A stretch of 64,000 bases of DNA from Fusobacterium ulcerans ATCC 49185 (GTDB lineage Bacteria > Fusobacteriota > Fusobacteriia > Fusobacteriales > Fusobacteriaceae). The stretch is taken from NCBI RefSeq assembly GCF_900683735.1, contig NZ_LR215979.1, positions 2,666,001 through 2,730,000 on the forward strand, read 5' to 3'. Under the pieces are notes generated by a model. That model did not search any database. It was not told where the DNA came from and saw only the letters and a program-made list of their open reading frames with translations. The position numbers and the translations under genes are program-made. This document shows positions 3,343 through 19,891 of this stretch, piece after piece; the first letter of the stretch is position 1; the number at the start of each line of letters is the position of its first letter.

Positions 3343-3371
3343 TTGACTTTTTTAATGAAGTATAGTATTCT
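3343..3371 (+). promoter_or_regulatory. sigma-70 promoter of pilus operon 1
   Basis: TTGACT-N17-TATTCT, with the -10 box about 47 bases before the first GEMM-I aptamer. It matches the placement of the three consensus promoters of the downstream cassettes. Confidence 0.7.
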
Positions 3372-3417
3372 CTAATTAGAAACACCTGCTCAGAAAAACG
3401 ATTCAAAGAGTTTTTAT

Positions 3418-3480
3418 AGCAAAATAATGGAAACATTATGACGCAAAGCTATAGGGCCTATTAAAATGGCAGCCAGTTGC
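3418..3480 (+). ncRNA. c-di-GMP-I riboswitch (GEMM-I), copy 1
   Basis: The conserved GEMM-I core is present: a stem capped by a GAAA tetraloop (ATAATG / CATTAT), then GACGCAAAGC, GGGCCT and GGCAGCCAG, closed by P1 (GCAA at 3419-3422 with TTGC at 3477-3480). The stem sequence differs from copies 3 and 4 by paired changes that keep base pairing. The nucleotide before CAAA is G, which I take to correspond to the ligand-contacting G20 of c-di-GMP-selective members; this alignment should be checked. Controls the operon of subunit, phosphodiesterase, tip protein, usher and chaperone. Confidence 0.93.
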
Positions 3481-3531
3481 AATTCTAAAAAATACAGAAG
3501 CTCTCTGTCTTTTTGTGATTGCACTTTTTTT
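3478..3531 (+). terminator. riboswitch-coupled intrinsic terminator, copy 1
   Basis: TGCAAT and ATTGCA form the base of a hairpin with inner AAAAA/TTTTT and ACAGA/TCTGT pairs, followed by a run of seven T. The TGC of the 5' arm is also the 3' strand of aptamer P1, so aptamer closure and full terminator formation compete; ligand should favour read-through. Confidence 0.85.
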
Positions 3532-3577
3532 ATCTAGATTAAAAATTAAGTTATTTAGAAATTTTGGAGGAAAATTT

Positions 3578-4084
3578 ATGAAAAAAATATTAATTCTTTT
3601 AGGAATATTCATTTCCTCAGTTATTCTCTTTGGAAGTGATAATGAGGCTGCAGTAACTGTTACTGCTGAATTTTTAGCACCTTTAAAAATTGAAGTAGTA
3701 CAAAATGCTGATTTTGGAACTGTTATAGCTCAAGACAATAATACAGTAAAAACAAAAACTGATGGTAAATTAGAAGTTACTGGTAATGGATATGTTACAT
3801 TAAAATGGGCTGATTCAAGTATTGGAACCCCAACTCAGGTTGATTCTTCTCCCCTTAAAGTTATCCTTAGAAATGAAAAAAATTCCAGCAATGAGCTTAT
3901 AGCCTATTTCAAAGTTGGAACTCAACCTAGTGTAAAGAATGATGCAAACTTCATTTTAAAAGAAGGAATTCCTTACACTCTTTTTGTTCCAGGAGAACTT
4001 AGTGTTACATCAAAGACTGCTTCTGGAATTTACAAAGGTTCGATCACTTTCAGAGTTGAATATACTGATGACCCTATGATATAA
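3578..4084 (+). CDS. secreted pilin-like subunit A (DUF4402-like)
   Basis: A 168-aa exported beta-rich protein. I start it at the ATG after GGAGG at 3566-3570; an upstream GTG in frame lies inside the riboswitch terminator. The signal peptide is MKKILILLGIFISSVILFGS. The mature part begins with an alternating hydrophobic strand (EAAVTVTAEFLAPLKIEV), has an N(A)DFG motif, and ends in SGIYKGSITFRVEYTD, the GxYxG...VxY terminal strand shared with the other subunits here. This architecture resembles chaperone-usher subunits and DUF4402 proteins. The role as fibre subunit is inferred from the neighbouring usher and chaperones. First gene of the c-di-GMP-switched operon. Confidence 0.75.
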   Translation: MKKILILLGIFISSVILFGSDNEAAVTVTAEFLAPLKIEVVQNADFGTVIAQDNNTVKTKTDGKLEVTGNGYVTLKWADSSIGTPTQVDSSPLKVILRNEKNSSNELIAYFKVGTQPSVKNDANFILKEGIPYTLFVPGELSVTSKTASGIYKGSITFRVEYTDDPMI

Positions 4085-4187
4085 GCAATACACCTTAAAA
4101 TCATAATTCCAAATTTTTAGTTATAACTTCACTTCACAATATCTTTATAAATAAAAAAATAAAAATAATATAAAAATGGTGGTGCTA

Positions 4188-6302
4188 ATGAAAAAACTAA
4201 TTACAATCTTCTTTATACTTTTTAGTTCTTTTGTCTTTGCAAAAGATTCTTTAACTATAAAGATACCTCTCAACCTTACAGATATGTATCTGTATAAAAA
4301 TTTAGAAACTGGAAAGTATGAAGGTGTTTATGCTGAAGTATTTGAAAAAATTAACACTGAAAAATTAAATTCTAAATATAATTTGGATTATAAATTAGAA
4401 AGTGAAAATCCTGAAGTAATGATAAGGGTTGTTGATTCTTATCAAGATGAACACTATGATTATATTCCTACATCTATTACATACAGGGTAGCTGTTCTAG
4501 TAAAAAACAACAGTAGTATTAGAAAAGTAAGTGATTTAAATGGATTAAAAATTGCTTATATTCCTAATTCTCGTGGTTTGGCAGAATTTGAAGAAAGGTT
4601 TTCAAATATAGTATTTGAAAAAGTTAGTGCTCCAAATGAAGATAAAGGACTGGAATATCTGGAAACTGGAGAAGCTGATGCTTTTATTGCTGTAGATTGG
4701 GCTGAAAGCAACTCTGTTGAAAGTCATATCAGAGTGATAGAATCTCTTCAATATAGAGAACAAATAGCTGTAAGAGAAGATAAAACTGAAATATATAATG
4801 CCATAAAAACTTACATAACTTCCCTACCTTCTTCTAACTTTACAGATATTATAAAAAGAAATAGAATAGATTATTATACTTATCTTTTAAAAGATACTCC
4901 TAATCAAGATATCATAAAAAATAAATTCAAAGAAATAAAGGTACAGCTCCCTAATTCAAAATATATTCTTCCGCTTTTTTATGAAAAAGATGGAAGATAC
5001 AAAGGACTTCTTCCTGAAATATTAAATGACTTGCAAACTATTATTGGAGTTCCTTTTAAAATAACTAAAGATAATGGAGATATAAATGCTTACATTATAA
5101 AAAATCAGAAAAAAACGGAAAAGTATATATTCAGTACTCCATATTATTCAAGTGATATAGGTATAGCAAATAAAAAACTTGATTCATATAGAGCTAGTAT
5201 AAGTGATTTAGACAATAAAAAAGTTCTTGTAGTTGAAAATAGTTATTTTTCTGAATATCTTCCTCAAGTAACTAAAGATATTACTATAATTCCTGTTAAG
5301 TCTGTTCAAGAAGGTCTTAAAAAATTAGCTGCAGGACATGGAGATTACTTTGTAGGATTTTCAAGTGTTATCAGAGGAGCTATAACTAATGAATTCCTTG
5401 ATGATGAGGTTAAAATAGCTGGAACTATAAATGAAAATATGGCTATCAGTCTTGGTGTAAAGAAAAACGAAGAAGAATTAAGTCAACTTGTCAATACAAT
5501 AATGAGAAGTTTCGCAGTTGATAAAACTCTCTCTGACCCTGAAGCTAATAAAAATATTCTTGTAGAAAAGAATTATAAACTTATGATGAAAGTAGCTGTT
5601 CCAACTGTAATTTTTATTATTATATTGATAATAGTTCTTATAAAATCTGAGAAAAATAGAAAAAAAGCTGAAGTCTTAGGTAATGCTTTAGTAGAAACAT
5701 TGGAAATGATAAATCAATTAGACCAGGAAGAAGCTGGAGATCATGCAAAAAGGTTATCTATGTATTCTGAATTACTTGCTGAAAAATCAGGTTTAGACAA
5801 AAAAATAGTATCTGAAATTAGAAAATTTGCTATTCTACATGATTTAGGTAAAGTTATTGTTCCTAATGAAATTTTAAATAAACCTGGAAAATTAACTGCT
5901 GAAGAGTTTAATAAAGTAAAAGAACATGCAATTGTAGGACATAGACTTGCTGAAAAATTAGGATTAGGAAGCGTTGCTGAAAATCTTGTTAAATTCCACC
6001 ATGAAAAATGGAATGGTTTAGGATATCCATTAGGATTAAAAGGAACTGAAATTCCAATCGAAGGAAGAATTGTAGCTTTAGCAGATACTTATGATACATT
6101 AAGACAAGATAAGGCATACAGACCTGGATTTTCACACGAAAAAGCTGTACAGATTATAACTGAGGAAAGTAATATTAGCTTTGATCCTGAATTGGTTAAT
6201 CTTTTCCTAAAAAATAGTGAATTGTTTAAAAAAATCTATGAAGAAAATACAAAATCTATATATCTTGCTGATGAAATCTACTCAGCTATAAAAAATAAAT
6301 AA
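4188..6302 (+). CDS. membrane HD-GYP c-di-GMP phosphodiesterase with two periplasmic SBP_bac_3 sensor domains
   Basis: Predicted sensor enzyme that hydrolyses c-di-GMP. A signal/anchor (MKKLITIFFILFSSFVFA) is followed by two tandem periplasmic solute-binding (SBP_bac_3) domains at about 18-235 and 240-465. A transmembrane helix lies at about 469-488, then a short linker and the HD-GYP domain. Catalytic signatures are intact: LHDLGK with H551/D552, HHEKWNGLGYP at 604-614 (Asn replaces the usual Asp of HHExxDGxGYP) and VALADTYD. I chose the ATG behind GGTGGTG rather than one 12 bases upstream. About 104 bases separate it from subunit A, with no terminator seen. Its ligand is unknown. Being inside a c-di-GMP-activated operon suggests negative feedback (inference). 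Confidence 0.9.
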   Translation: MKKLITIFFILFSSFVFAKDSLTIKIPLNLTDMYLYKNLETGKYEGVYAEVFEKINTEKLNSKYNLDYKLESENPEVMIRVVDSYQDEHYDYIPTSITYRVAVLVKNNSSIRKVSDLNGLKIAYIPNSRGLAEFEERFSNIVFEKVSAPNEDKGLEYLETGEADAFIAVDWAESNSVESHIRVIESLQYREQIAVREDKTEIYNAIKTYITSLPSSNFTDIIKRNRIDYYTYLLKDTPNQDIIKNKFKEIKVQLPNSKYILPLFYEKDGRYKGLLPEILNDLQTIIGVPFKITKDNGDINAYIIKNQKKTEKYIFSTPYYSSDIGIANKKLDSYRASISDLDNKKVLVVENSYFSEYLPQVTKDITIIPVKSVQEGLKKLAAGHGDYFVGFSSVIRGAITNEFLDDEVKIAGTINENMAISLGVKKNEEELSQLVNTIMRSFAVDKTLSDPEANKNILVEKNYKLMMKVAVPTVIFIIILIIVLIKSEKNRKKAEVLGNALVETLEMINQLDQEEAGDHAKRLSMYSELLAEKSGLDKKIVSEIRKFAILHDLGKVIVPNEILNKPGKLTAEEFNKVKEHAIVGHRLAEKLGLGSVAENLVKFHHEKWNGLGYPLGLKGTEIPIEGRIVALADTYDTLRQDKAYRPGFSHEKAVQIITEESNISFDPELVNLFLKNSELFKKIYEENTKSIYLADEIYSAIKNK

Positions 6303-6322
6303 ATACTGCAGAGGTGAATTTT

Positions 6323-7753
6323 TTGAGAAAATATTTATTATTATTGATATTTAATTTTTCTTTGATCTTTAGCTTTAGCAGTACTACTAACGACGTAGAA
6401 AATATTTTTGCTGATGAATTTGGATATCAAAATGAAAAAACTAGTGAGATTCCTGAAACTTTGAATATTCTGCAGGGAATGAGAGTTTCAACCATTGATC
6501 CTGCCATGATAAAAGATAATTATTCTAAAAGGACTATTCCATTGATGTATGATACTCTTTTTACTTTTAATAAGAATGGAGATATAAAACCTTGCCTTGT
6601 TAAAAATTATAAATGGCTGAATGACAGAGAACTCTCTATAGAATTAAAAACTGATATAAAATTTCATGACAAAAGTATTCTTACTGCCAAAGATGTTAAA
6701 GATTCATTAGAATATCTGAAAAAAAATGGAACATTGAAAACTTTTTATTCTGAAATAACAGACATAAAAGTTTTAAACACAAAAGAACTAATAATAAAAA
6801 TTGCTGAAAAAGACAGTCTTTTTTTAACTGCATTGACTTATGAAATTAGTTCTATAGCTAAAAGAAATGAAAAAGGAATAATTGGTACTGGTCCTTTTTC
6901 TATTAAAAGTTTTAATGGAAAAACTTTAAAGTTGGAAAGATTTCCCAATTATTTCAATGGAATTTCCAGTATAAAAAAAGTAAATATTGGAGAAGAAGTT
7001 AATGAAAGTCAAAGACTTATAGCTTTGTTTAATGACAAAGCTAATATTGCTTTAGATGTAACAGAAAAATCTCTAAATAATGCAAAAGAATATGGAATAA
7101 TTGATGATGATGTTGCTGTTGAAAAAAGTGAAGAAACAGAAAGTACTGTTCTTATGTTTGGGAATCAAAAAAATTACTCTATTGAAAGTAGAAAGGCTAT
7201 AGAAAGTGCTGTTCAAAGAACAGCTGACTCTTTTTTTCCTAGTACAATGTTTACTCCCAGACTTTCTAAAGTAAATATTGATTACAACACTTCAAAAGCT
7301 AAAGAAAATATAAATAAAGCAGGATTAAAAAATAAAGAAGTTAATATTATGGTTCTTAATACAAATAATAGTATGGAACAGGCTGAGAAAATAAAAGCCT
7401 CTCTTGAAAAGGCTGGAATGAAAGTAAACCTTCTGCCTCATCAAATAGATTCATACTATATTAAATTTCAGAACAAAGACTTTGATCTTGCTATTTTCAA
7501 TGTTGCATTTAATAGCAATTATACTGTATTTAATCTAGGTAAAGTTCTTCTTTATGATATTGGAGATATGGAAATGTACAATGCTTTACAACCATTTCTC
7601 AAAATAATAAAAGAAGAAAAAGATAAAGAAAAAAGAGATCAAGTATTTGATAAAATAGTTCAACTTATTTATAAAGATCTTCCATATATTCCAATTTCTC
7701 ATGGCAAGACTCTCATAGTAGGAGCTGAAAAATATAAATATATAAAAAGATAA
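6323..7753 (+). CDS. orphan periplasmic solute-binding protein (SBP_bac_5, oligopeptide/nickel type)
   Basis: A 476-aa family-5 extracellular solute-binding protein: N-terminal hydrophobic signal (RKYLLLLIFNFSLIFSF), the STIDPAMIKDNYS opening, then GTGPFSIKSFNGKTLKLERF, a classic SBP_bac_5 stretch. The TTG start fits the AGAGGTG site 6 bases upstream; a GTG nine bases earlier is part of that site. No lipobox is visible and no ABC permease or ATPase gene is nearby, so ordinary uptake is doubtful. It follows the SBP-domain phosphodiesterase by 20 bases and precedes the tip-like protein, so a role as periplasmic co-receptor or ligand scavenger is possible (inference). Confidence 0.8.
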   Translation: MRKYLLLLIFNFSLIFSFSSTTNDVENIFADEFGYQNEKTSEIPETLNILQGMRVSTIDPAMIKDNYSKRTIPLMYDTLFTFNKNGDIKPCLVKNYKWLNDRELSIELKTDIKFHDKSILTAKDVKDSLEYLKKNGTLKTFYSEITDIKVLNTKELIIKIAEKDSLFLTALTYEISSIAKRNEKGIIGTGPFSIKSFNGKTLKLERFPNYFNGISSIKKVNIGEEVNESQRLIALFNDKANIALDVTEKSLNNAKEYGIIDDDVAVEKSEETESTVLMFGNQKNYSIESRKAIESAVQRTADSFFPSTMFTPRLSKVNIDYNTSKAKENINKAGLKNKEVNIMVLNTNNSMEQAEKIKASLEKAGMKVNLLPHQIDSYYIKFQNKDFDLAIFNVAFNSNYTVFNLGKVLLYDIGDMEMYNALQPFLKIIKEEKDKEKRDQVFDKIVQLIYKDLPYIPISHGKTLIVGAEKYKYIKR

Positions 7754-7771
7754 GGGGAGGGGATTAAAATA
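7754..7771 (+). promoter_or_regulatory. strong ribosome site pointing to a non-ATG start
   Basis: GGGGAGGGG at 7754-7762 directly follows the previous stop. The first in-frame ATG lies 39 bases further on, too far for this site. An in-frame ATA at 7769 (6 bases away) or ATT at 7763 would use it. Confidence 0.5.
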
Positions 7772-8641
7772 TATAAGAGGCTAAAGTTAATAATAGGACT
7801 TATGTTTGTAATATTTTCTTTTTCTTATTCAGGTAATACTGCATTTGATGTTTCAGTAAGAGGAATATACACAAAAGAAGATGTTATAAAAAATCAAACT
7901 CAAATTGTCAATTTTGAAATTAGTGAAGTTACAATAAGAGCTAAAAATAATACTAAAGATACTTTTTTTCAAGTTACAAATATAGAAACTACAAATGAAA
8001 ATTTTATTAATGGGCAAAATTTAAAAATAACAAATATAAATAAAGGTATAGGAAATGAAAATCGCGTTTATTTTAAAGATAATGAAAACAATTCAATTGA
8101 TACCATTAAATTTTCTTTAAAAGGTACTCTTATTTTTAATTGGAAGGAAACTAATAAAAAACCTGACTTAGCAATTGGTTATAGAGGAGAAGAACATCAA
8201 TATAAAAACACTAGTAATTATATAACTGTTGATCTTAGTGATGTAAAGCCAATAACTTTACTGAAAATAAGTGTCAAGGAAGATCTGAATCTTGGAAAAG
8301 GAATAGCTGGTTCTGTTCTTGATACTTCTAATGGCAGTGGTTCTCCTGCAACAGTTGAAGCTACTGGAGAATATGGTAAAAATGTAAAATTTAAAATTCT
8401 AAATCCTGAAAATATAAAAATTACCAGCATTAAAAATTCTCAAGATTCATTAAAAGTTGATGTCTGGTTTGAAAACTCTAATATGAGCAAAACAATTATA
8501 AAAAAATTAAATGAAAATACTAATGAAACTTACACTGGAAAAACATCTGACATTAAAATTCATGGTAGATGTCAATCAAACTCAAATAGTCGTGGAATCT
8601 ATAAAGGAAGTTTTATAGTAAGAGTGGAGTATGATGATTAA
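7769..8641 (+). CDS. two-domain tip-adhesin-like pilus protein
   Basis: About 290 aa if translation starts at the non-canonical ATA, which gives a proper signal peptide (YKRLKLIIGLMFVIFSFSYS); from the first ATG (7802) the N-terminus lacks the basic region. The N-terminal domain (to about 160) has no recognised family. The C-terminal domain (about 160-290) has the subunit pattern: PITLLKISVKEDLNLGKG early and RGIYKGSFIVRVEYDD at the end. An adhesin-like domain joined to a pilin domain, single copy and next to the usher, is the layout of tip adhesins such as CooD/CfaE or FimH. The function is inferred. It overlaps the usher start by 11 bases, suggesting translational coupling. Confidence 0.6.
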   Translation: MYKRLKLIIGLMFVIFSFSYSGNTAFDVSVRGIYTKEDVIKNQTQIVNFEISEVTIRAKNNTKDTFFQVTNIETTNENFINGQNLKITNINKGIGNENRVYFKDNENNSIDTIKFSLKGTLIFNWKETNKKPDLAIGYRGEEHQYKNTSNYITVDLSDVKPITLLKISVKEDLNLGKGIAGSVLDTSNGSGSPATVEATGEYGKNVKFKILNPENIKITSIKNSQDSLKVDVWFENSNMSKTIIKKLNENTNETYTGKTSDIKIHGRCQSNSNSRGIYKGSFIVRVEYDD

Positions 8642-11255
8642 AAAAAGGAAGCTTCTGCTTTCTTTAGTATTTCTTATGCTTGTATCTAAATCTCTTTATT
8701 CAATAGAAAATTATGAAAATTTTGAAGATTCATATATACAAATAAGTGCAAAAAAGATCAAAGATGACTTTTTCATGGTAAAATATGACTATAATAATGA
8801 AGAAGTTTACATAGGAATGAATGCTTTATTTTATTTTATGGAACTTTATGGACTTGAAGTAAATATCAATCAAAAATCCATATCAGGAAAACTTGATGGA
8901 AAAGATTTTAATGTTTCTTTTTCAGATGATGAAGCTTATGTCTTAGATGGAGAACTGTTTGTTAATTCAAAAGCTTTAGAAAAAAAGATGGATTTTACTT
9001 CAATAAAATATGATTTTTCATCTTTGAGATTAACTTTAGAACCAAATTTTATTCTTCCATATGAAGAAAGAGAAAAAGGAAAAGTAGAAAGATTAAGATT
9101 AGACAGCAGAAAAGAAGAGGAAGAAAAAAAAATTGATATTGAAGTTCCCAGAAAACTTATAACTCCTGGATTATTAAAATTAGATTATTCTCAATCTGAT
9201 ATAAAAGGACCTGAGAATCAGCTTTCATATGAATATGCTTCACAATTTCTTTATGGAGAATTATATCTCTCAGGTAGTATAAGACCTGAATCAGAACTTA
9301 CCTATGGTAACCTTACTTATTCTGATATCGTTGGAGATAATGACCTTGTATTAGGTAATTTTTCTCTTATAACACCTAGTTTTTTAAGCATAGACAGTAA
9401 TATTCTAGGAGTAAGTTTTAATAATGAAGAAACATATGTAACAAAAGATGGAGCTATTACAGTTATCAAAGGGGAGGCATTTGATGCTGATATAATTGAA
9501 CTATATAGAAATGGAATGCTATTAAGTTACATAACCCCTCAAACAAAAGATTTTGAATTTAGAATAGATGATGGAATACTTAGTTCTGACTATACATTAA
9601 AAATTTATTATAAAAATGGTGGAATAGAAGAAAGAACTGTCTATTCTCTATCAGATTCTGAATTATTAAAAAAGGGAAGATACAGATTTTCAGCTCAAAG
9701 TGGTAAAAATGCTGATAATGGTGATCCTCAAAGTATTGTAAAAGCTTTTTATGGACTAGCAGATAACCTTACTATAGGAATAAGTGGAAGCGACCTTATA
9801 AGTACTTCTGGAAGAAAGTACAGATTTTTAGAAAATACTTTTTTATGGAGTACAGGTCTTCATAATTTTCCTACTTTAATTAATTATAAAAATTTTTATG
9901 AAATAGAAAAGCAAGAAAATAGCTATAATCTTTCAATAGAACAAAAATTATTTTCATATAATTTAAGATTTACTGAAAATAAATATTCACCATATGTCTA
10001 TGAAGACACAAATTTAAAAAAATATAATTCAATATCTATTGGTAAAAGTTTTGATAGAAACTCTCTTGAATTTGGGCTTAATAGATATATTTATTATGAT
10101 ACTGATATTGAAAGTAAAAATGTATATGGAACATGGTACTCATCAATGCTTAATCCTGTTTCTTTCTCTTTGAGAGCAGAAAAGGAATTAACAAAAGGAA
10201 GTGAAGGGGTTGCATTCTATCCATCTTTTGCTTATTCTGGATTCCAAAGTTTAAATATGATGTTAGATGGGGAAATAAGCAAAAAGAAAAGTGATGATGA
10301 ATATAAACAGGAATACTCATTAAAAATAAATAAAAGAAATATGGAACTAATAAAAGATACTTTATTTGTTGATTTTGGTGTAGAAGCAAAATATTCCAGT
10401 GAAACAGAAAAATTTAGATATGGTATTACTTTCACTGTAGAATTAGACGATTTTATCTACCTTGAAGTTCCAACTGATGTTACAATAGATGAAAACAATA
10501 ATCGTGAAACAACTACAAGTCTTCATGCAAGTAAGATTATCGATCTTAGCAATCCCCTTAGAAAAATTAAAAGCAATGTTTCCATTACTGGAGCTTGGAT
10601 ACATGGTAAAGTATTCCTTGATAAAAATGGAAACGGTATATTTGATGAAGGGGATATTCCTATTCCAGAAGCTGGTGTTATGGTAAATAATAAAACTTTC
10701 ATAGCTGATGAAGATGGAAATTATGTAGCTGAAGGAGTTGTTACTAACGAAGTTATAGATCTTACAATAAACAGAAAAACTATTGACCCTATGATGAAAA
10801 ATTCTAAGGGTGCTTTAAAAATAAAAACAAGAAAATCTTCTGGGCTTAAAGTTGATATCCCTATTGAAGTTGTTTCAATGGTTACAGGAAATATCTGGAA
10901 TACATCTGAATTTACAGAAAGGCAATTTATACAAGCTGTATCTATGACCACTATAGTCCTTGAAAAAGATGGGCAAGTTCAATATGAAGTCGATCCTGAA
11001 TTTGATGGAATGTTCTTCTTTGAAGATATACCACCAGGACAATATAAAATGAAATTCATATATCTTGGTCAGGAAAATTTTGATTTTACTGCTCCTGAAC
11101 TAGATGTTGATGTTACTCTTACAGATACAGAAACTGGAGAGTATTTCGAAGGTTATGACACTCAACTGATGAGAAAAGTTGATGAAGAAGCAACTCAAGA
11201 AACAACAACTGATATGAATGAAGATGAAATAGATGACATCTTAAATAATTACTAA
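8631..11255 (+). CDS. outer-membrane fimbrial usher-like protein (alpha/TcfC-CooC-like)
   Basis: Predicted outer-membrane pore that assembles and secretes the pilus; 874 aa, normal for ushers. Signal peptide ends near SKSLYS. An N-terminal periplasmic domain (about 25-165) with an acidic/basic linker is followed by a long region of alternating beta strands. The usher-type segment ADIIELYRNGMLL...FEFRIDDG...YTLKIYYKNG...LLKKGRYRF begins near residue 285. A carboxypeptidase-regulatory-like fold (GKVFLDKNGNGIFDEGD) starts near 658, and a second beta domain (FFFEDIPPGQYKMKF) near 790; the tail is very acidic. The D-N-G-x-D-G-D element recalls alpha-clade ushers. Remote homology judged by eye; another outer-membrane secretion barrel is the main alternative. 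Confidence 0.75.
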   Translation: MMIKKRKLLLSLVFLMLVSKSLYSIENYENFEDSYIQISAKKIKDDFFMVKYDYNNEEVYIGMNALFYFMELYGLEVNINQKSISGKLDGKDFNVSFSDDEAYVLDGELFVNSKALEKKMDFTSIKYDFSSLRLTLEPNFILPYEEREKGKVERLRLDSRKEEEEKKIDIEVPRKLITPGLLKLDYSQSDIKGPENQLSYEYASQFLYGELYLSGSIRPESELTYGNLTYSDIVGDNDLVLGNFSLITPSFLSIDSNILGVSFNNEETYVTKDGAITVIKGEAFDADIIELYRNGMLLSYITPQTKDFEFRIDDGILSSDYTLKIYYKNGGIEERTVYSLSDSELLKKGRYRFSAQSGKNADNGDPQSIVKAFYGLADNLTIGISGSDLISTSGRKYRFLENTFLWSTGLHNFPTLINYKNFYEIEKQENSYNLSIEQKLFSYNLRFTENKYSPYVYEDTNLKKYNSISIGKSFDRNSLEFGLNRYIYYDTDIESKNVYGTWYSSMLNPVSFSLRAEKELTKGSEGVAFYPSFAYSGFQSLNMMLDGEISKKKSDDEYKQEYSLKINKRNMELIKDTLFVDFGVEAKYSSETEKFRYGITFTVELDDFIYLEVPTDVTIDENNNRETTTSLHASKIIDLSNPLRKIKSNVSITGAWIHGKVFLDKNGNGIFDEGDIPIPEAGVMVNNKTFIADEDGNYVAEGVVTNEVIDLTINRKTIDPMMKNSKGALKIKTRKSSGLKVDIPIEVVSMVTGNIWNTSEFTERQFIQAVSMTTIVLEKDGQVQYEVDPEFDGMFFFEDIPPGQYKMKFIYLGQENFDFTAPELDVDVTLTDTETGEYFEGYDTQLMRKVDEEATQETTTDMNEDEIDDILNNY

Positions 11256-12205: not shown

Positions 12206-12946
12206 GTGAAAAAAATATTTGTATTTTTTATGACTTTTATCATTGGAATCAATTTATATGCCCTTAATTTTTCTGTAGCTCCTACAAGTTTTAAAGTTGA
12301 ACTTAAAAAACCTGTAACTCAGGAAGTGTATATAATCAATAATACTCCTGCTCCTTTAAGAATAGAAACACATTTGGAAGCTGCTGATTCTTTTGAAAAT
12401 TTTAATTTAAATAATGATATCACTGTTTTTCCTAAAATGATATCTATCAAACCTGGTGCTAAACAAACTATAAGATTCAGAATAAAACCCAACCCAGAAA
12501 TGAAAGATGGTGAATACAGAAGTTTATTAATATTTAAAGAAGTTCCCAAAGAAATAAAAACTGTAATCACTGATAATCAAAATAATAAGGGATTATCTAC
12601 AGAACTTACTTTTATTACAGAAGTAGCAATAGGTGTGTCAGGTATTAAGGGAAAACCTGTAATTGATGGTACAGTACAAGATGTAAAAGCAACTTATGCT
12701 GGAAAAGTTCTTTCTCTTCAATGTAATACTATTTCAAAAGGTAATACTGCTATGAGAATAAACTATATATTAGAAAATGAAAATGGTAATATTATTTCTG
12801 AAGGAAGATTTGGAACAAGTGCAAGATCTGGTGAAAAAAAACTTTTCACTAATATAGAAATTCCTGAATTAAAAGCAAAAAAAATAAAGCTTATATTAAA
12901 AAATCAAGATAATAAAATTATTTATGCTGGAACAAATTCTTTATAA
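12206..12946 (+). CDS. periplasmic pilus chaperone 1 (PapD-like)
   Basis: Predicted periplasmic chaperone that caps pilus subunits before delivery to the usher; 246 aa. Signal peptide to LYA, then the mature start LNFSVAPTSFKVEL shared with three paralogues downstream. The PapD N-domain pattern is clear: VYIINNTPAPLRIE, then FPKMISIKPGAKQTIRFRIK near residues 90-110 and GEYRSLLIFKE. GTG start behind AGAGGTG. It is the most diverged of the four copies at its C-terminus, fitting service to the operon-1 subunits. Last gene of operon 1. Confidence 0.87.
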   Translation: MKKIFVFFMTFIIGINLYALNFSVAPTSFKVELKKPVTQEVYIINNTPAPLRIETHLEAADSFENFNLNNDITVFPKMISIKPGAKQTIRFRIKPNPEMKDGEYRSLLIFKEVPKEIKTVITDNQNNKGLSTELTFITEVAIGVSGIKGKPVIDGTVQDVKATYAGKVLSLQCNTISKGNTAMRINYILENENGNIISEGRFGTSARSGEKKLFTNIEIPELKAKKIKLILKNQDNKIIYAGTNSL

Positions 12947-12961
12947 GATTAAACATAGAGG

Positions 12962-12988
12962 GAAGGGGAAAATAATCTCCTTCTTTTT
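12962..12988 (+). terminator. intrinsic terminator of pilus operon 1
   Basis: GAAGGGGA / TCTCCTTC hairpin followed by TTTTTATTTTT, 15 bases after the chaperone stop. Confidence 0.75.
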
Positions 12989-13099
12989 ATTTTTATGTTC
13001 AGTTTTATATCTCTGACTTTTTTAATTCACTTTCCAGTCCTGCTATCATAAAACTTCTTTTATTCGTATTTTTATAAGGTTTTTATTAAAAATATTTTG

Positions 13100-13128
13100 T
13101 TGACATACATTAATTATTAATGTATAAT
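13100..13128 (+). promoter_or_regulatory. consensus sigma-70 promoter, cassette B
   Basis: Exact TTGACA-N17-TATAAT, with the -10 box 35 bases before the aptamer. Such a strong promoter implies that control lies in the riboswitch rather than at initiation. Confidence 0.9.
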
Positions 13129-13162
13129 TATATTACATAAAACAAGTATATTTTAATTTCTT

Positions 13163-13224
13163 GGCAAAGTAATGGAAACATTATGACGCAAAGCTATAGG
13201 GCCTGTTAAATGGCAGCCAGTTGC
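13163..13224 (+). ncRNA. c-di-GMP-I riboswitch (GEMM-I), copy 2
   Basis: Same core as copy 1: GAAA-capped stem (TAATG / CATTA), GACGCAAAGC, GGGCCT, GGCAGCCAG, closed by GCAA (13164-13167) and TTGC (13221-13224). Precedes subunit B. Confidence 0.94.
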
Positions 13225-13281
13225 AATTATTATAAAAAATATGATTTCATAATCGTGTTTTTATATAATAATTGCATTTTT
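13222..13281 (+). terminator. riboswitch-coupled terminator, copy 2
   Basis: TGCAATTATTATA pairs with TATAATAATTGCA (one bulged base pair allowed) and is followed by TTTTT. Its first bases are the P1 3' strand of the aptamer, the arrangement of a ligand-ON switch. Confidence 0.88.
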
Positions 13282-13329: not shown

Positions 13330-13923
13330 ATGAAAAAATTATTATTATTAGCAGGACTATTGGTTGTAGCTAGTTCGGTTTTTGCTGTTGACAGTACACC
13401 TAAAACTGAAGCTGAAGCAGAAATAGGTGTTCGTGCAGAAGTTTTAGATGATCTAATTATAGCTAAACAAAAAGATGTTAATTTTGGTGTTTTAAGAAAA
13501 GGTGCTACTAAAGATACTCCAGAAGAAGTGGGAGAATTTACTATAACTGGTTCAAAGGGTACAAAAGTACTTCTTTCTGTTAAAGATGCTAATGGTGCTA
13601 CTGATTATCAAGCAGTAAGTGATAGTGGTATTCCAGTAATATTAAGCTTAACAGATGTAACTCCCAATGATAGAAATAAGAAATTTAAACAAATGACTTC
13701 TCTATTAGAAATTTATGATAGTAATGATAATAAAGTTACAAAGGAAAGTGTTATTCTTGATTCTGGTGATTATCAATATGGAACTTCAAAAGGTTTTACA
13801 TCTACCTTTAAAGTTAAAGGTTCTGTAACTACTGATCCAAGCCAATTTGGTGGAAAATATAATGGTACTTTAATGGTAAAAGTTAAACATAATGGATGGC
13901 TTGATGGAAGTTTGAAAAAATAA
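13330..13923 (+). CDS. secreted pilin-like subunit B (DUF4402-like)
   Basis: A 197-aa exported subunit. The start is the ATG after AGGAGGG; the longer upstream frame runs through the terminator and is not translated. Signal peptide MKKLLLLAGLLVVASSVFA. The mature N-terminus AEAEIGVRAEVLDDLIIA is an alternating strand of the kind used for donor-strand exchange, followed by VNFGVLRKG. It ends GGKYNGTLMVKVKHNG, the conserved terminal strand. No cysteines are needed for folding, unlike type 1 pilins. Role inferred from the paired chaperone. Confidence 0.77.
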   Translation: MKKLLLLAGLLVVASSVFAVDSTPKTEAEAEIGVRAEVLDDLIIAKQKDVNFGVLRKGATKDTPEEVGEFTITGSKGTKVLLSVKDANGATDYQAVSDSGIPVILSLTDVTPNDRNKKFKQMTSLLEIYDSNDNKVTKESVILDSGDYQYGTSKGFTSTFKVKGSVTTDPSQFGGKYNGTLMVKVKHNGWLDGSLKK

Positions 13924-13999: not shown

Positions 14000-14749
14000 A
14001 TGAAAAAACTCTTATTATTTTTATTTCTAATTAGTATTTCTATTATTTCATATTCTTTTAATTTTTCAGTAATGCCTACAATTTTCGCAGTAGATTTAAC
14101 TAAAGTATCTACTAATGAAGTTTATCTTACTAATAATACAGCTGATCCTCTAAGAATTGAAATATATCCTGAAAGTGATTCTGATTTTAGTGAAAAATAT
14201 ACTTTAAATTCTAATATTGTAATATTTCCAAAAGTTGTAGCTATAAAGCCTGGAGCTACTCAAACTGTTAGATTTAGAATAAAAGCTTCTCCCAATATGG
14301 AAAAAGGCGAATATAAAAGTCTTCTTACTTTTAGAGAACTTGAACAAAATATAAAAACTGCTCAAACTGGAGAGGACAACAGAGTTAATGAAACAATTGG
14401 AACAAATATAACTATGTTGACTGAAGTTAGTATAAGTGTATTTGGACAAAATGGAGAAGGTCGCATTAAAGGAAGCCTTTCTGACATAAAAATCAATTAT
14501 AATAATAATTATATAAATATTTCTTCCATGAGCAATTCTGAAGGAGACACTTCTTTAAAATTTTTTTATAAAATAAATATATTAAATTCTAATTTAGAAA
14601 CAAATGGATTGTTTGGCCTTACTTTAAGGAATGGAAAAGCACCTATTAGTGTTTCTATTCCAGGGAAAAATTTGAAAGGTAAAAAGGCTGAAATTACTAT
14701 TGTAGATCAGGATGGAAAAATATATTATAAAAAAATTCATACTCTTTAA
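14000..14749 (+). CDS. periplasmic pilus chaperone 2 (PapD-like)
   Basis: 249-aa paralogue of the operon-1 chaperone. Signal peptide, then FNFSVMPTIFAVDL; VYLTNNTADPLRIE; FPKVVAIKPGATQTVRFRIK; GEYKSLLTFRE. The C-terminus LKGKKAEITIVDQDGKIYYK groups it with chaperones 3 and 4. AGGAGG site before the ATG. It should chaperone subunit B (inference from pairing). No clear terminator follows; the next promoter starts about 50 bases downstream. Confidence 0.86.
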   Translation: MKKLLLFLFLISISIISYSFNFSVMPTIFAVDLTKVSTNEVYLTNNTADPLRIEIYPESDSDFSEKYTLNSNIVIFPKVVAIKPGATQTVRFRIKASPNMEKGEYKSLLTFRELEQNIKTAQTGEDNRVNETIGTNITMLTEVSISVFGQNGEGRIKGSLSDIKINYNNNYINISSMSNSEGDTSLKFFYKINILNSNLETNGLFGLTLRNGKAPISVSIPGKNLKGKKAEITIVDQDGKIYYKKIHTL

Positions 14750-14797: not shown

Positions 14798-14826
14798 TTG
14801 ACAGTTAATGAAGAATAGAGTATAAT
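14798..14826 (+). promoter_or_regulatory. consensus sigma-70 promoter, cassette C
   Basis: Exact TTGACA-N17-TATAAT ahead of riboswitch copy 3. Confidence 0.9.
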
Positions 14827-14854
14827 ACAGTAAAGAAGTATATATTAAATATTT

Positions 14855-14916
14855 GGCAAAATAACAGAAATGTTATGACGCAAAGCTATAGGGCCTGTTA
14901 AATGGCAGCCAGTTGC
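14855..14916 (+). ncRNA. c-di-GMP-I riboswitch (GEMM-I), copy 3
   Basis: The core is identical to copy 2 from GACGCAAAGC through GGCAGCCAGTTGC, but the tetraloop stem is TAACA / TGTTA instead of TAATG / CATTA: two positions changed on both strands with pairing kept. P1 is GCAA (14856-14859) with TTGC (14913-14916). Confidence 0.94.
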
Positions 14917-14975
14917 AATTATTTTTAAAGATGCAAGTAATTCTATCCTTACACTTTAATAATAATTGCTTTTTT
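14914..14975 (+). terminator. riboswitch-coupled terminator, copy 3
   Basis: GCAATTATTTTTAAAG pairs with CTTTAATAATAATTGC (minor mismatches) and is followed by TTTTTT; the 5' arm begins in the P1 3' strand. Confidence 0.87.
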
Positions 14976-15028: not shown

Positions 15029-15607
15029 ATGAAAAAATTATTATTATTAGTTAGTATATTAGCAGTATCTGGAATTACTTTTGCTGCTACAACAAGTTCT
15101 GACACAACAGGAACTGTTGATGTTAGAGCAGAAGTGGTAACTCAATTAGAAATTGTTGATACTACTCCTGTAGATTTTGGACGTATTGCTGCTGGTCAAG
15201 AAAATAAACCTGAAGAAAAATCTGGTTCTTTTACTATTGTAGGGTCTTCTGGTAAAAATATAAAAATTACTGTTCGTGATGAAAATAAAAGTGGAAGTCA
15301 ATATATAGATCCTTCTAATGGTATTGATGTAGTTTTATATCAAGATGGAAGTCTAACAACTATAACTAATAAACAAATGATATCTAAATTATTTTTATAT
15401 AATAATTCAGCTAAAGTAGGCAATTCACCTCTTACATTTGGAAGTAAAGCTAATTATTATCCTAATAGTAATAATGCTCAACCAAAAACTAAACTTCCTT
15501 TAGATGTTAAAGGAACTCTTACTGCTGGAATAAATCAAGACATTGGAAATTATCAAGGTATATTAGGAATTAAAGCTGTTTATACTGACCCAGTTATAAA
15601 AAAATAG
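15029..15607 (+). CDS. secreted pilin-like subunit C (DUF4402-like)
   Basis: 192-aa exported subunit. Signal peptide MKKLLLLVSILAVSGITFA; alternating strand GTVDVRAEVVTQLEIV; PVDFGRIAAGQEN; terminal strand IGNYQGILGIKAVYTD. GGGAGG site seven bases before the ATG. Paralogous to B and D but clearly diverged in the middle, so the cassettes may make antigenically or functionally different fibres or successive segments of one fibre. Confidence 0.77.
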   Translation: MKKLLLLVSILAVSGITFAATTSSDTTGTVDVRAEVVTQLEIVDTTPVDFGRIAAGQENKPEEKSGSFTIVGSSGKNIKITVRDENKSGSQYIDPSNGIDVVLYQDGSLTTITNKQMISKLFLYNNSAKVGNSPLTFGSKANYYPNSNNAQPKTKLPLDVKGTLTAGINQDIGNYQGILGIKAVYTDPVIKK

Positions 15608-15686: not shown

Positions 15687-16424
15687 ATGAAAAAAATTAT
15701 TTATTTCGCAACACTTCTAATTCTTTCACTTAATATCTATGCTTTAAATTTTTCTGTTTTTCCTACTGGATTTCGATTTAGCTTAGATAAAGTAATTACA
15801 GAAGAAGTCACTATTACCAATAGTACTTCATCTCCTTTAAGATTAGAGGCTTTTACTGAATCAGATCTTGAATTTAGTGAAAAATATAATATAAATTCTA
15901 ACATAACAGTTTTTCCAAAAACTATATCTATAAAACCAGGTGAAAGGCAAATAGTAAGATTCAGAGTAAAACCTACTTCTGATATAGGAGATGGAGAATA
16001 TAAAAGTTATCTCACATTTAAAGAAATTCCTGGAAAAATAAAAACAACAGTGCCAGAAAAAAATGTTAATGGAACAAACATTGCAATACAAACTGAAATA
16101 AGTATTGGAATATTTGGAGAAAAAGGAACTCCTAATGTTAAAGGTTCTCTTTCAGCTGTAAGTTTAACATATAATGGAACCCATTTAAATCTTCATTTTT
16201 TATCTTTATCAGAAGGAAACACTTCTATTAAGTTCTTTTATTCTTTAGAAATTTTAAATTCCAATTTAAAATCAGAAGGTTTTTTAGGAATCTCTGCTAG
16301 AAATGGAGAAAAAGAAATTTCTTTAATGATGGAAGCTCCAGAAAAATTAAAAGGTAAAAAAGCCAAGTTAGTAATTACTGACCAAGATGGAAAAGTATAT
16401 TATGATAAAGTTCATAATTTATAA
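15687..16424 (+). CDS. periplasmic pilus chaperone 3 (PapD-like)
   Basis: 245-aa chaperone: signal peptide to IYA, LNFSVFPTGFRFSL, VTITNSTSSPLRLE, FPKTISIKPGERQIVRFRVK, GEYKSYLTFKE, and the C-terminal KGKKAKLVITDQDGKVYYD shared almost exactly with chaperone 4. TGGAGG site. Paired with subunit C. Confidence 0.86.
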   Translation: MKKIIYFATLLILSLNIYALNFSVFPTGFRFSLDKVITEEVTITNSTSSPLRLEAFTESDLEFSEKYNINSNITVFPKTISIKPGERQIVRFRVKPTSDIGDGEYKSYLTFKEIPGKIKTTVPEKNVNGTNIAIQTEISIGIFGEKGTPNVKGSLSAVSLTYNGTHLNLHFLSLSEGNTSIKFFYSLEILNSNLKSEGFLGISARNGEKEISLMMEAPEKLKGKKAKLVITDQDGKVYYDKVHNL

Positions 16425-16460
16425 TTACAATTAAAAATTTATAAATCCATATTTTATGAG

Positions 16461-16489
16461 GAGTTCTATAAAGTAGAACTCTTTTTTTA
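16461..16489 (+). terminator. intrinsic terminator of cassette C
   Basis: GAGTTCTA-TAAAG-TAGAACTC hairpin followed by TTTTTTT. Confidence 0.87.
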
Positions 16490-16538: not shown

Positions 16539-16567
16539 TTGACATACATTATTTGCTGGAGTATAAT
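16539..16567 (+). promoter_or_regulatory. consensus sigma-70 promoter, cassette D
   Basis: Exact TTGACA-N17-TATAAT ahead of riboswitch copy 4. Confidence 0.9.
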
Positions 16568-16594
16568 ATATTAAAGAAGTATATATTATAATTT

Positions 16595-16656
16595 AGCAAA
16601 ATAACAGAAATGTTATGACGCAAAGCTATAGGGCCTGTTAAATGGCAGCCAGTTGC
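16595..16656 (+). ncRNA. c-di-GMP-I riboswitch (GEMM-I), copy 4
   Basis: Nearly identical to copy 3, including the TAACA / TGTTA tetraloop stem, and therefore probably the most recent duplicate. P1 is GCAA (16596-16599) with TTGC (16653-16656). Confidence 0.94.
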
Positions 16657-16708
16657 AATTATTTTTAAAAGTGTTATTTTTTGCACTTTAATAATAGTTG
16701 CTTTTTTT
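16654..16708 (+). terminator. riboswitch-coupled terminator, copy 4
   Basis: GCAATTATTTTTAAAAGTG pairs with CACTTTAATAATAGTTGC (one G-U pair and minor bulge), followed by TTTTTT; overlaps the P1 3' strand like the other copies. Confidence 0.87.
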
Positions 16709-16761: not shown

Positions 16762-17307
16762 ATGAAAAAATTATTATTGTTAGCTGGTATATTAGCAATA
16801 TCAGGAGTTACTTTTAGTGCTGGAATGTCTGATAGTGCTGATTTAAATGTTAAAGCTCAAATTATTAAACCATTAAAAGTTACTACTGCACCTGTAGATT
16901 TTGGCATATTAACTCAAGGCCAAGAAAATGCCACTGAAGAAAAAGCAGGTGAAATAAGGATTGAAGGCGAAAAAGGAAAAGTAGTTTCTATTGAATTGGA
17001 AAACCTTGTAGCACCAAATGTTTTAGGACATAATAGTGGTGTGACATTAGTTAATACAAATAATAAAGATTCTACTTTAAATGCAATTCTTTATTCAATA
17101 GATAAATATAGAAATGGTGAAGCAAGAATAGCTATTGGAACTGTTTTTAAAGATAACTTTGCTATAGAAGAGAATAATTCATTAGTTTTTCCTGTTACAG
17201 GAATTATTAAAACTGTTCCTGAAAAGGCAGCTCCTGGTACTTATAATGGAACAATCACAGTTAATGTTAGATATAACTTTGATGGTTCACTTGAACCACA
17301 AAAATAA
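16762..17307 (+). CDS. secreted pilin-like subunit D (DUF4402-like)
   Basis: 181-aa exported subunit, started at the ATG behind GGGAGGG. Signal peptide MKKLLLLAGILAISGVTFS; alternating strand ADLNVKAQIIKPLKV; PVDFGILTQGQEN; terminal strand PGTYNGTITVNVRYNFDG. The motif TQGQENxxEEKAG resembles AAGQENxPEEKSG of subunit C, supporting cassette duplication followed by divergence. Confidence 0.77.
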   Translation: MKKLLLLAGILAISGVTFSAGMSDSADLNVKAQIIKPLKVTTAPVDFGILTQGQENATEEKAGEIRIEGEKGKVVSIELENLVAPNVLGHNSGVTLVNTNNKDSTLNAILYSIDKYRNGEARIAIGTVFKDNFAIEENNSLVFPVTGIIKTVPEKAAPGTYNGTITVNVRYNFDGSLEPQK

Positions 17308-17320
17308 AATATAAATTATA

Positions 17321-17348: not shown

Positions 17349-17373
17349 CAACTTAAATTAATGGAGGATTTTT

Positions 17374-18114
17374 ATGAAAAAATTACTTTTTATTGTATTA
17401 TTATTAAATCTTTCTATTTTATCATATTCGCTTAATTTCTCTGTAGCTCCCACAGGATTTTCAGTAGAATTAAATAAACCTTCTACTCAAGAAATTACTA
17501 TTTTAAACAATACAACTGAACCACTAAGATTAGATGCAGTTTTTCAAACTGATTCTGATTTTGGAGAGAAATACAATCTTAATTCTACTCTTACTATTTT
17601 TCCTAAAACAATATCTTTAAAACCTGCTGGGAAGCAAACAGTAAGATTTAGAGTAAAACCTGATTCATCTATTCAAGATGGGGAATATACAAGTTTACTT
17701 ACTTTTACTGAAATTCCTGGAGAAATAAAAACTGTTTCCTCTAACAATAAAAATAATGTTTCTTCAAACCTAAATTTTATTACGAAAATTAGTATTAGTG
17801 TTTATGGATATAAAGGAAATCTTATACACAAAGGAACTTTATCAAATCTAAATTTAGATTATAATGGGAACTCTGCAATTATTTCAGCTTCTTCATTTTC
17901 AGAAGGAAATACCTCTTTAAAATTTTCATATAATTTAAAAGTGCAGGGTTCTGATACTGAAATATCTGGATTGTTTGGAATTTCAGCTAGAGAAGGTAAA
18001 AAAGATATAAGTTTATCAACGCAGTTAGGTCCTAATTTAAAAGGAAAAAAGGCAAAATTGGTAATCACTGATCAAAATGGAAAAGTATATTATGATAAAG
18101 TACATACTTTATAA
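17374..18114 (+). CDS. periplasmic pilus chaperone 4 (PapD-like)
   Basis: 246-aa chaperone: signal peptide, LNFSVAPTGFSVEL, ITILNNTTEPLRLD, FPKTISLKPAGKQTVRFRVK, GEYTSLLTFTE, C-terminal KGKKAKLVITDQNGKVYYD. TGGAGG site before ATG. Paired with subunit D and closest to chaperone 3. Confidence 0.86.
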   Translation: MKKLLFIVLLLNLSILSYSLNFSVAPTGFSVELNKPSTQEITILNNTTEPLRLDAVFQTDSDFGEKYNLNSTLTIFPKTISLKPAGKQTVRFRVKPDSSIQDGEYTSLLTFTEIPGEIKTVSSNNKNNVSSNLNFITKISISVYGYKGNLIHKGTLSNLNLDYNGNSAIISASSFSEGNTSLKFSYNLKVQGSDTEISGLFGISAREGKKDISLSTQLGPNLKGKKAKLVITDQNGKVYYDKVHTL

Positions 18115-18136
18115 TAACAACTAAATATAAATTTAC

Positions 18137-18169
18137 AAGACTGTTCTTGAAGAGCAGTCTTTCTTTTTT
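18137..18169 (+). terminator. intrinsic terminator of cassette D
   Basis: AAGACTG / CAGTCTT hairpin followed by TCTTTTTT. Confidence 0.82.
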
Positions 18170-18200
18170 AAAATAAACTCTTCAAATCGTATTTTTCAGT

Positions 18201-18229
18201 TTGACAATATCTGATTTTGGGGATATACT
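18201..18229 (+). promoter_or_regulatory. sigma-70 promoter of the GGDEF gene
   Basis: TTGACA-N17-TATACT. The 85-base leader to the start codon holds no GEMM aptamer and no terminator, so cyclase synthesis is not under the same switch. Confidence 0.85.
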
Positions 18230-18313
18230 TATATTAATATATAAACAGTTAAGTATAAAAACTTTAATTCCAATAATAGAATAAAATTTAACTTAAAAAT
18301 ACAAGGAGCAGTT

Positions 18314-19891
18314 ATGTACAATGCAGCTTTAAAAATTTTGTACCCTGACAACTCTCATATTGATACAGCAATGAATAACTTAAAAACGAGAGAAAATTTT
18401 AGTTATGATTTAATCAAATATCATGATTTAAAAGATGAAGATATTGAAAAAGCTGGTATTCTTTTAGTTCTTCATTCTGATGGCTATGAAGCAGAAAAAT
18501 TAAAAAAACTTATGAAAACTAATACAATATTAATCTATATCCTAGAGCATAGTATTCTCACTTCTAATGATGCTCTTTTTAATTTTGCAGATGATATCTG
18601 GTTTTCTTCACTATCTGAAAATGAAATACTATTTAGAATGGAAAAAATAGTTGATGGAGTAAAGCTGAAAAAAGATAAAAATCTAGCTGAAAATTATCTT
18701 AACACACTAATAAATAGTATTCCTGATATGGTATGGTTTAAAGATAACAGAGGTATTCATCTAAAAGTTAATGACGCTTTTTGTAATATCATAGGAAAAT
18801 CAAGGGAAAAAATAGAGGGACAGGATCACTTCACTATCTGGGATATTCCAAGGCCTGAGTATGAAAAAGGTGGATATATCTGTATGGAAAGTGAGGAAGA
18901 TGTTCGTAAAGCTGGAAAGACTATTTTATTATATGAAAAAGTAAAAAATAGAAATGGATTCCGTCGTCTGAATACATATAAATCTCCTTTATATGATGAA
19001 GATGGAGAGATGATGGGAACTGTAGGAATAGCCCATGACATCACTGATTTAGAAAATATTGATATAGAGCTGCAGCTTATTATCAATACTATGCAGTTTG
19101 CAATATTGATTTGCAATAATAATGGTGAAATAATCAATGTTAATAATAAGTTTGTTGAATATTTTAATATTGAAAAAGATGTTATTGTTAAACATAACTA
19201 CAGAAATTGGTTAAAAGAAAGTTTAACTTTAGTTACTACAACAGATAAAAATGGATGTTTTGAATGTAATAATCAAAAAAATTCAAAGCTTCAGATATTA
19301 AGTTGTCATGAAAAAATAATTTTAGATACATTCCAGAAAGAAATAGGAAAATTGTGTATTTTCCGTGATATAACTAAAGAAAGAGAATTAGAAAGCAAAC
19401 TCATTCATACTTCTAATACTGATTATCTCACTGGATTATACAATCGTCGTTACTTATATGAATATATAAAGCACTTTAAAAAAGTCAATCAAATCACTAT
19501 TTTATATATGGATCTTGATAATTTTAAATCTATAAATGATATATATGGACATCAAGTGGGAGATGAAATATTAGTACTTACCTCATCTATTCTTAAAAAA
19601 ATTTTTCCAGAAGATTTAATAGCTCGTATTGGAGGAGATGAATTTCTCATAGTTTCATTGGGAGAATGGGATATAGAAAAAATAATGGATAAAGCTTCTC
19701 TTGTAATCAAAGACTTGAAAGAAGCTTACATAAATAAAACTAACTTCATTCATTTGAGTTCAAGTATAGGTATAACTACAGCTTATAACAAAGTTATTGA
19801 CTTAGACAAACTTATCAAACAAAGTGATGTAGCTCTCTATGAAGCAAAAAGAAGAGGAAAATCACAAATTTATTTCTTACCATTTGAATAA
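18314..19891 (+). CDS. PAS-GGDEF diguanylate cyclase
   Basis: Predicted cytoplasmic enzyme making c-di-GMP from two GTP; 525 aa. Residues 1-115 look like a degenerate receiver-type domain. A PAS domain with PAC follows at about 130-250 (SIPDMVWFKDNRG...GTVGIAHDITD), a second PAS-like domain at about 255-365, and GGDEF at about 375-525. The catalytic GGDEF at 440-444 is intact, with the TDYLTGLYNRRYL and YMDLDNFKSINDIYGHQVGD signatures. The RxxD inhibitory site is replaced by FPED (431-434), so product inhibition through the I-site is unlikely. No membrane segment. Its place at the end of the riboswitch-controlled pilus locus suggests that it supplies the ligand (inference). Confidence 0.92.
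   Translation: MYNAALKILYPDNSHIDTAMNNLKTRENFSYDLIKYHDLKDEDIEKAGILLVLHSDGYEAEKLKKLMKTNTILIYILEHSILTSNDALFNFADDIWFSSLSENEILFRMEKIVDGVKLKKDKNLAENYLNTLINSIPDMVWFKDNRGIHLKVNDAFCNIIGKSREKIEGQDHFTIWDIPRPEYEKGGYICMESEEDVRKAGKTILLYEKVKNRNGFRRLNTYKSPLYDEDGEMMGTVGIAHDITDLENIDIELQLIINTMQFAILICNNNGEIINVNNKFVEYFNIEKDVIVKHNYRNWLKESLTLVTTTDKNGCFECNNQKNSKLQILSCHEKIILDTFQKEIGKLCIFRDITKERELESKLIHTSNTDYLTGLYNRRYLYEYIKHFKKVNQITILYMDLDNFKSINDIYGHQVGDEILVLTSSILKKIFPEDLIARIGGDEFLIVSLGEWDIEKIMDKASLVIKDLKEAYINKTNFIHLSSSIGITTAYNKVIDLDKLIKQSDVALYEAKRRGKSQIYFLPFE

Follow-up and report, generated by a model that had tools for sequence, protein, structure and literature searches.

The window analysed here is a stretch of 64,000 nucleotides, positions 2666001-2730000 of the closed, complete 3.84-Mb genome of Fusobacterium ulcerans ATCC 49185 (G000:C1). 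Its positions 3343-19891 hold a putative chaperone-usher pilus locus, with all genes on the + strand. It encodes an usher, four PapD-type chaperones, four exported pilins and a two-domain tip-like protein. A PAS-GGDEF cyclase and an HD-GYP protein whose sensor is periplasmic are also encoded there, and the locus carries four riboswitches of the cyclic di-GMP (c-di-GMP) class. Searches with Pfam and NCBIfam identified HD-GYP, SBP family 3 and 5, MORN_2, PapD_N and GGDEF domains in the window. The genes listed in a previous sequence-only reading were all present where they had been placed. That list was nevertheless incomplete, as two conserved genes of the locus, for an SBP family 5 (SBP5) protein and for a MORN_2-repeat protein, had been omitted.

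Five transcription units are predicted. Unit 1, the machinery unit, would comprise sub1 (3578..4084, an exported pilin-like subunit resembling DUF4402), the HD-GYP gene (4176..6302), the gene for an orphan exported SBP5 protein of NikA/OppA type (6314..7753), the tip-like gene (7802..8641), the usher gene (8631..11255), the gene for the exported MORN_2-repeat protein (11279..12190) and chaperone 1 (12206..12946), and is closed by an intrinsic terminator at 12955..12990. Units 2 to 4 would hold one subunit-chaperone pair each: sub2 (13330..13923) with chaperone 2 (14000..14749), sub3 (15029..15607) with chaperone 3 (15687..16424), and sub4 (16762..17307) with chaperone 4 (17374..18114). Intrinsic terminators close unit 3 (16458..16484) and unit 4 (18137..18161), and the cyclase gene (18314..19891) is predicted to form a separate unit. 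Within unit 2, a terminator-like hairpin followed by a U-run lies in the gap between sub2 and chaperone 2 (13957-13974), which could reduce the amount of chaperone mRNA relative to that of the subunit.

Four RF01051 (c-di-GMP-I) aptamers were found in the locus with a covariance model, at 3408..3484, 13153..13228, 14845..14920 and 16585..16660 (switches 1 to 4, all +). Their scores of 56.5-60 bits exceed the gathering score (35), and they keep the conserved GCAAA, the GAAA loop and the ACGCAAAG core, so that the four riboswitches announced by the sequence-only reading are confirmed. A search of the whole 3.84-Mb genome returned no c-di-GMP-I aptamers beyond these four. Switches 2, 3 and 4 are each preceded by a perfect sigma-70 promoter, TTGACA-17-TATAAT (12/12), at 13100..13128, 14798..14826 and 16539..16567 respectively. 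The promoter of unit 1 (3343..3371, TTGACT-17-TATTCT, 9/12) is weaker, and its hexamers and spacing are identical in genomes G008, G009 and G010. The best upstream promoter score reached 11-12/12 in 16 of 26 switches, compared to 1 of 520 mononucleotide-shuffled controls. Our reading of these motifs is that the pilin units have stronger promoters than the machinery unit, and that the strong promoters would be held by RNA gates. The cyclase promoter (18201..18229, TTGACA-17-TATACT, 11/12) sits behind a terminator and has no riboswitch.

Each aptamer runs into an intrinsic terminator. For switch 1 (3478..3531, −14.1 kcal/mol), the 5′ arm overlaps the 3′ end of the aptamer and a U-run follows; for switch 2 (13222..13281, −22.6 kcal/mol), the 5′ arm begins at position −2 relative to the ligand-contacting C; the terminators of switches 3 and 4 lie at 14915..14975 (−13.1 kcal/mol) and 16655..16708 (−14.7 kcal/mol). 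Twenty-four different switches were compared for this placement, one or two of which came from outside the pilus loci of the Fusobacteriaceae. In 22 of them, the best terminator has its 5′ arm starting −5 to +1 from the aligned ligand-contacting C; at −9 kcal/mol or better, this placement was seen in just one of 96 dinucleotide shuffles, which were made from 12 of the switches. Switch 1 of the present locus and its G008 orthologue do not follow the pattern; even so, TGCAAT and ATTGCA pair in the minimum-free-energy fold of switch 1, a little ahead of U7. As the terminator starts at the ligand-contacting C, terminator and ligand-bound aptamer should be mutually exclusive, and the riboswitches are most likely ON switches, judging from the sequence.

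The opposite direction of control had to be weighed here. The pilus could be real but made when c-di-GMP is low, with c-di-GMP promoting termination; OFF-type c-di-GMP-I switches are indeed known, Cd1 and Vc2 among them (PMC9262584). In Cd1, however, aptamer and terminator can coexist, whereas here the terminator takes both the ligand C and the 3′ strand of P1 in 22 of the 24 switches. Such a mutually exclusive design is that of the GEMM-I riboswitch of Geobacter pilM, a cGAMP-binding (cyclic GMP-AMP) ON switch for pilus genes (PMC9262584). An OFF switch is therefore unlikely in our view, and we retain the ON direction. The likeness to Geobacter concerns the aptamer/terminator arrangement: the Geobacter switch binds cGAMP and controls pilM, whereas the Fusobacterium switches would control a chaperone-usher pilus, with c-di-GMP as their expected ligand.

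The HD-GYP protein consists of an SBP_bac_3-like periplasmic sensor (4e-7), a transmembrane segment and a putative phosphodiesterase domain (HD_5, 2e-30) with an intact HD...HHExWNGxGYP motif, and it is the only PF13487 match of the genome. The guanine-specific D, the RxxD inhibition site and the Hypr signature are known from PleD and Hypr enzymes. The PAS-PAS-GGDEF protein (GGDEF, 7.5e-34) retains the guanine-specific D and has no RxxD site; part of the background on GGDEF motifs can be found in PMC6456294. The earlier assignment of an HD-GYP phosphodiesterase and a GGDEF cyclase to the locus agrees with the domain scores. On the receptor side, a profile search for PilZ, in which the positive control was matched, found none in any of the 12 genomes of the genus. 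The four aptamers are the only dedicated c-di-GMP receptors of known class found in this genome; EAL and degenerate GGDEF proteins may also serve as receptors, and the search for c-di-GMP-II riboswitches had no positive control.

We then consider the usher, the gene start of which is overlapped by 11 bases by the end of the tip-like gene, whose product has a C-terminal DUF4402-like pilin domain. The Pfam Usher profile PF00577 did not match the window protein, and matched only 1 of 19 usher homologues (E 5.6e-4), so that this protein is barely visible to the profile. As the subunits are also borderline SCPU/DUF4402 matches, the usher and pilin calls needed structure. An AlphaFold2 model of the usher was built from the 19 homologues, the window protein included. 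It has a mean predicted local distance difference test score (pLDDT) of 78, and shows an N-terminal domain, a barrel that a plug-like insert interrupts at about residues 257-337, and beta domains at the C-terminus. DSSP gave about 23-24 barrel strands, a count made from secondary structure and not from barrel closure. With Foldseek, the first 18 rows were all FimD/PapC (E 2.3e-22 to 8.8e-11, the next row being at 1.6e-8), and with VIA the first 15 rows were all FimD/PapC ushers (Z 15.7-18.6), followed by LptD (Z 14.8). Sequence identity was about 11%. The modelled fold is that of an usher, which agrees with the usher-like barrel of the sequence-only reading.

When profiles from the usher, subunit and chaperone alignments were searched against solved structures, no credible match appeared, so that membership in the chaperone-usher pathway is based on the fold, on PapD_N and on the neighbouring genes. 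One usher peptide pattern, a narrow test, was scanned over 84,980 species genomes and returned only Fusobacterium and Cetobacterium. A search of plasmids with the usher gave weak matches only, one of them, in Pseudoalteromonas, with 81% coverage and 21.6% identity.

The subunits of the window are weak SCPU/DUF4402 matches, sub3 and sub4 exceeding the SCPU cut-off. In an alignment of 31 subunits, a signal peptide precedes a core that varies, and the tail reads GxYxG...VxVxY; 20 of the 31 matched DUF4402 and 6 matched SCPU. The model of sub4 (pLDDT 82) forms a beta sandwich at about residues 36-173, with residues 1-39 unstructured. Of its first 50 Foldseek rows, 49 were chaperone-usher subunits or pilin domains of tip adhesins, among them Caf1, FimG, CfaB, CsuA/B, CupE and PapA, the sole other one being an archaeal cannula protein at rank 36. 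With VIA, every one of the first 50 rows was a chaperone-usher pilin or the pilin domain of a tip adhesin. These comparisons support the view that sub4, as modelled, is the pilin of a chaperone-usher fibre, and the pilin-like subunits of the earlier description can be retained as such on the immunoglobulin-like fold of this one. The sequence-only reading had also named beforehand which folds would speak against it; the usher and sub4 models take usher and pilin folds instead. As to an archaic or a classical class, the VIA rows of sub4 are tied, and most subunit homologues match DUF4402, not SCPU.

Chaperones 1 to 3 exceed the PapD_N cut-off (chaperone 3 at 4e-8); chaperone 4 has no direct PapD_N match but is a close homologue of the three others. 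The four PapD-like chaperones expected from sequence are thus recovered, three by profile and one by homology. The four are 245-249 aa long, the second domain being scored by no family, and PapD_N was matched by 11 of 16 chaperone homologues. Several relatives have a first chaperone of just 145-153 aa (L036:11612-12073, L041:11807-12244, L042:7522-7959 and L045:7553-7996), roughly the size of a single PapD domain. Among the family searches that had been proposed, PapD_N matched three of the four chaperones, DUF4402 gave weak matches, and the Usher profile did not match the window protein.

It may be asked at this point whether the products form a pilus at all, rather than another surface layer exported by chaperone and usher, or whether the usher homologue secretes something else. 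SCPU and DUF4402 are not families named as pilins, and the usher is nearly invisible to its profile. Yet usher, pilin and chaperone classes co-occur, the structures match components of pilus assembly, and the subunits share the pilin-type tail; moreover, a capsule-like fibre such as Caf1 would still count as a chaperone-usher fibre. A non-pilus function is, we estimate, highly improbable, and the models support the earlier interpretation as a chaperone-usher pilus locus.

Conservation was analysed in 98 genomes of the phylum. Usher-family matches were found in 40 and aptamers over cut-off in 36, with 30 having both. All positive genomes belong to one family (f1), the genomes of other families having neither. 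An usher is found at 15 kb or less from 49 of the 143 c-di-GMP-I aptamers, when about 4 would be expected, and 47 of these 49 are on the strand of the usher; chance clustering was rejected on this basis, the estimate being a rough one that ignores relatedness. The order aptamer-(sub)-HD-GYP-SBP5-tip-usher-MORN_2-chaperone recurs in genera g1, g3 (Cetobacterium) and g5. This supports one conserved riboswitch-linked unit across the Fusobacteriaceae.

The link to c-di-GMP also holds across genomes. Among the usher-positive ones, 30 have both GGDEF and aptamers, 8 have neither, and 2, which are incomplete, have GGDEF only (Fisher 6e-7, phylogeny ignored). In the F. mortiferum-type genomes G003 and G004, the only GGDEF match of the genome lies within the pilus locus. 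The loci L040 and L101, from GGDEF-free genomes, have kept SBP5-tip-usher-MORN_2-sub-chaperone with neither HD-GYP nor aptamer, so that the pilus can outlive c-di-GMP control. L041 comes from a genome in which GGDEF, HD-GYP and aptamer searches all gave no match; its sensor gene (4469-5911) stops just past the transmembrane helix and has no HD-GYP domain. As SBP5 is kept in such loci, and the sensor in truncated form in L041, both proteins may have a further role. The usher of L041 reads as two consecutive open reading frames (8228-9715 and 9727-10854).

Aptamers away from any usher were also seen in two loci. In L038 (G011:C3:1-15000), from a sister genome with no usher match, two c-di-GMP-I switches and the only GGDEF match of the genome lie together, and the genes behind the switches encode an outer-membrane beta-barrel protein and an alpha/beta hydrolase. 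In L039, a c-di-GMP-I switch at 7278 stands beside a gene (7413-8144) for a protein with six MORN_2 repeats, with no usher near. This last case suggests that the MORN_2 partner, which in the window is conserved 3′ of the usher, is separable from the pilus.

Taken together, these results make it very probable that the locus encodes a divergent chaperone-usher pilus of the Fusobacteriaceae, expressed at high c-di-GMP. We propose that it works as follows. The cyclase would be made from its own promoter, outside riboswitch control. The pilus units would start from constitutive promoters, but transcription would halt at the intrinsic terminator just past the aptamer. As the 5′ arm of this terminator holds the ligand-contacting C and the 3′ strand of P1, bound c-di-GMP should block the terminator and RNA polymerase would read on. 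The HD-GYP protein made from unit 1 would degrade c-di-GMP; being itself under switch 1, it should cause rising c-di-GMP to induce its own degradation. This would be a negative feedback loop, and whatever the periplasmic sensor binds probably sets its gain. The chaperones would then hand the pilins to the usher by donor-strand exchange, and the two-domain protein may cap the fibre as an adhesin.

Several observations weigh against this interpretation. The usher model has a predicted template modelling score (pTM) of 0.59, and its Foldseek TM-scores to FimD/PapC are about 0.25-0.48 at 10-14% identity; we attribute these modest values to a large barrel at such divergence. The terminator energy of switch 1 is not unusual (z −0.67). 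The genome holds 15 other GGDEF matches, 16 in total, and 8 EAL matches, so that local control is not exclusive. The locus had been called self-contained, which is true of this genome only in part and fits the F. mortiferum-type relatives better; for the same reason, we did not adopt the pilus as the sole c-di-GMP output of F. ulcerans. Finally, switches 1 and 4 have an A at the equivalent of the ligand-selective G20 of Vc2 (window 3418 and 16595), where switches 2 and 3 have G, and the ligand preference of these two is uncertain.

Part of the locus might for this last reason sense 3′,3′-cGAMP instead of c-di-GMP. We take an A at the G20 position to be as in the GEMM-Ib switches of cGAMP type, and it was also found in one switch of G008 and one of G006. 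Position 20 has been described as a ligand selectivity factor (PMC9262584). However, A20 varies between orthologous switches, those of switch 1 in three sister genomes carrying G. In addition, no D-to-S Hypr signature was seen among the alignable cyclases of the genome, each of which either retains the guanine-specific D or has a degenerate domain, and cGAMP signalling through a Hypr GGDEF enzyme was rejected on that account. Sensing of cGAMP by part of the locus is thus very unlikely, and c-di-GMP remains the expected ligand.

Elsewhere in the same genome, two further, distant chaperone-usher-like loci are present, L046 (G000:C1:3454000-3470000) and L047 (G000:C1:3187000-3204000), with no riboswitches, HD-GYP or GGDEF nearby. 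The window itself contains a fluoride riboswitch (48791-48865, − strand) that precedes a gene for a cation:proton antiporter-like membrane protein (47575-48858). The TTG start listed for this gene overlaps the aptamer and is likely wrong.

Among known systems, the archaic (sigma) pili, such as Csu of Acinetobacter baumannii and CupE of Pseudomonas aeruginosa, share with the locus subunits that match SCPU/DUF4402, a two-domain tip-like protein and PapD-type chaperones. The VIA list of the sub4 model opens with the Csu pilin 7zl4 (Z 8.6); CupE 8cio scored Z 8.0, level with classical pilins. Archaic systems are listed for Proteobacteria, Cyanobacteria and Deinococcus-Thermus, Fusobacteria not being among them (PMC4654587). 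Unlike archaic pili, the Fusobacterium locus has a chaperone gene after most subunits, riboswitch control, the additional SBP5 and MORN_2 genes, and an usher that escapes the Usher profile. In regulation, the closest likeness we considered is to the type 3 fimbriae of Klebsiella (mrkABCDF-mrkHIJ), a c-di-GMP-activated chaperone-usher pilus with a phosphodiesterase in the linked cluster. Their control by c-di-GMP involves MrkH, a PilZ protein, and MrkJ, the phosphodiesterase (PMC3161979). Klebsiella thus senses c-di-GMP by a PilZ activator, whereas the Fusobacterium locus would do so by four RNA switches, PilZ being absent; the phosphodiesterase is of EAL type in the former and of HD-GYP type in the latter, which also holds a cyclase.

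Two 2026 reviews describe F. nucleatum as lacking a chaperone/usher pathway, and attribute its adhesion to autotransporters and FadA (PMC13432900, PMC12940168). In the open-access literature, we found no report of fusobacterial chaperone-usher pili, nor of a chaperone-usher pilus controlled by a riboswitch. None of the parts is of a new kind; what seems new is their combination, the phylum and the branch of ushers.

On balance, we favour, with some reserve, the broader view that the Fusobacteriaceae hold their own deep branch of chaperone-usher systems, in a phylum unlisted for the pathway, that this would be the first such pilus gated directly by RNA, and that in some species the c-di-GMP network amounts to about one cyclase, the phosphodiesterases of the locus and the riboswitches, with the pilus as main output. 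If this is true, a fibre system hidden by divergence exists in the large-genome, gut-type fusobacteria and in Cetobacterium, which would add a new group of adhesins to those that can be studied. The locus would moreover be a clean case in which RNA switches, not proteins, tie c-di-GMP to a chaperone-usher pilus. In the species with a single cyclase, the c-di-GMP network would then be minimal, and its input, enzymes, sensor and output might be followed one at a time.

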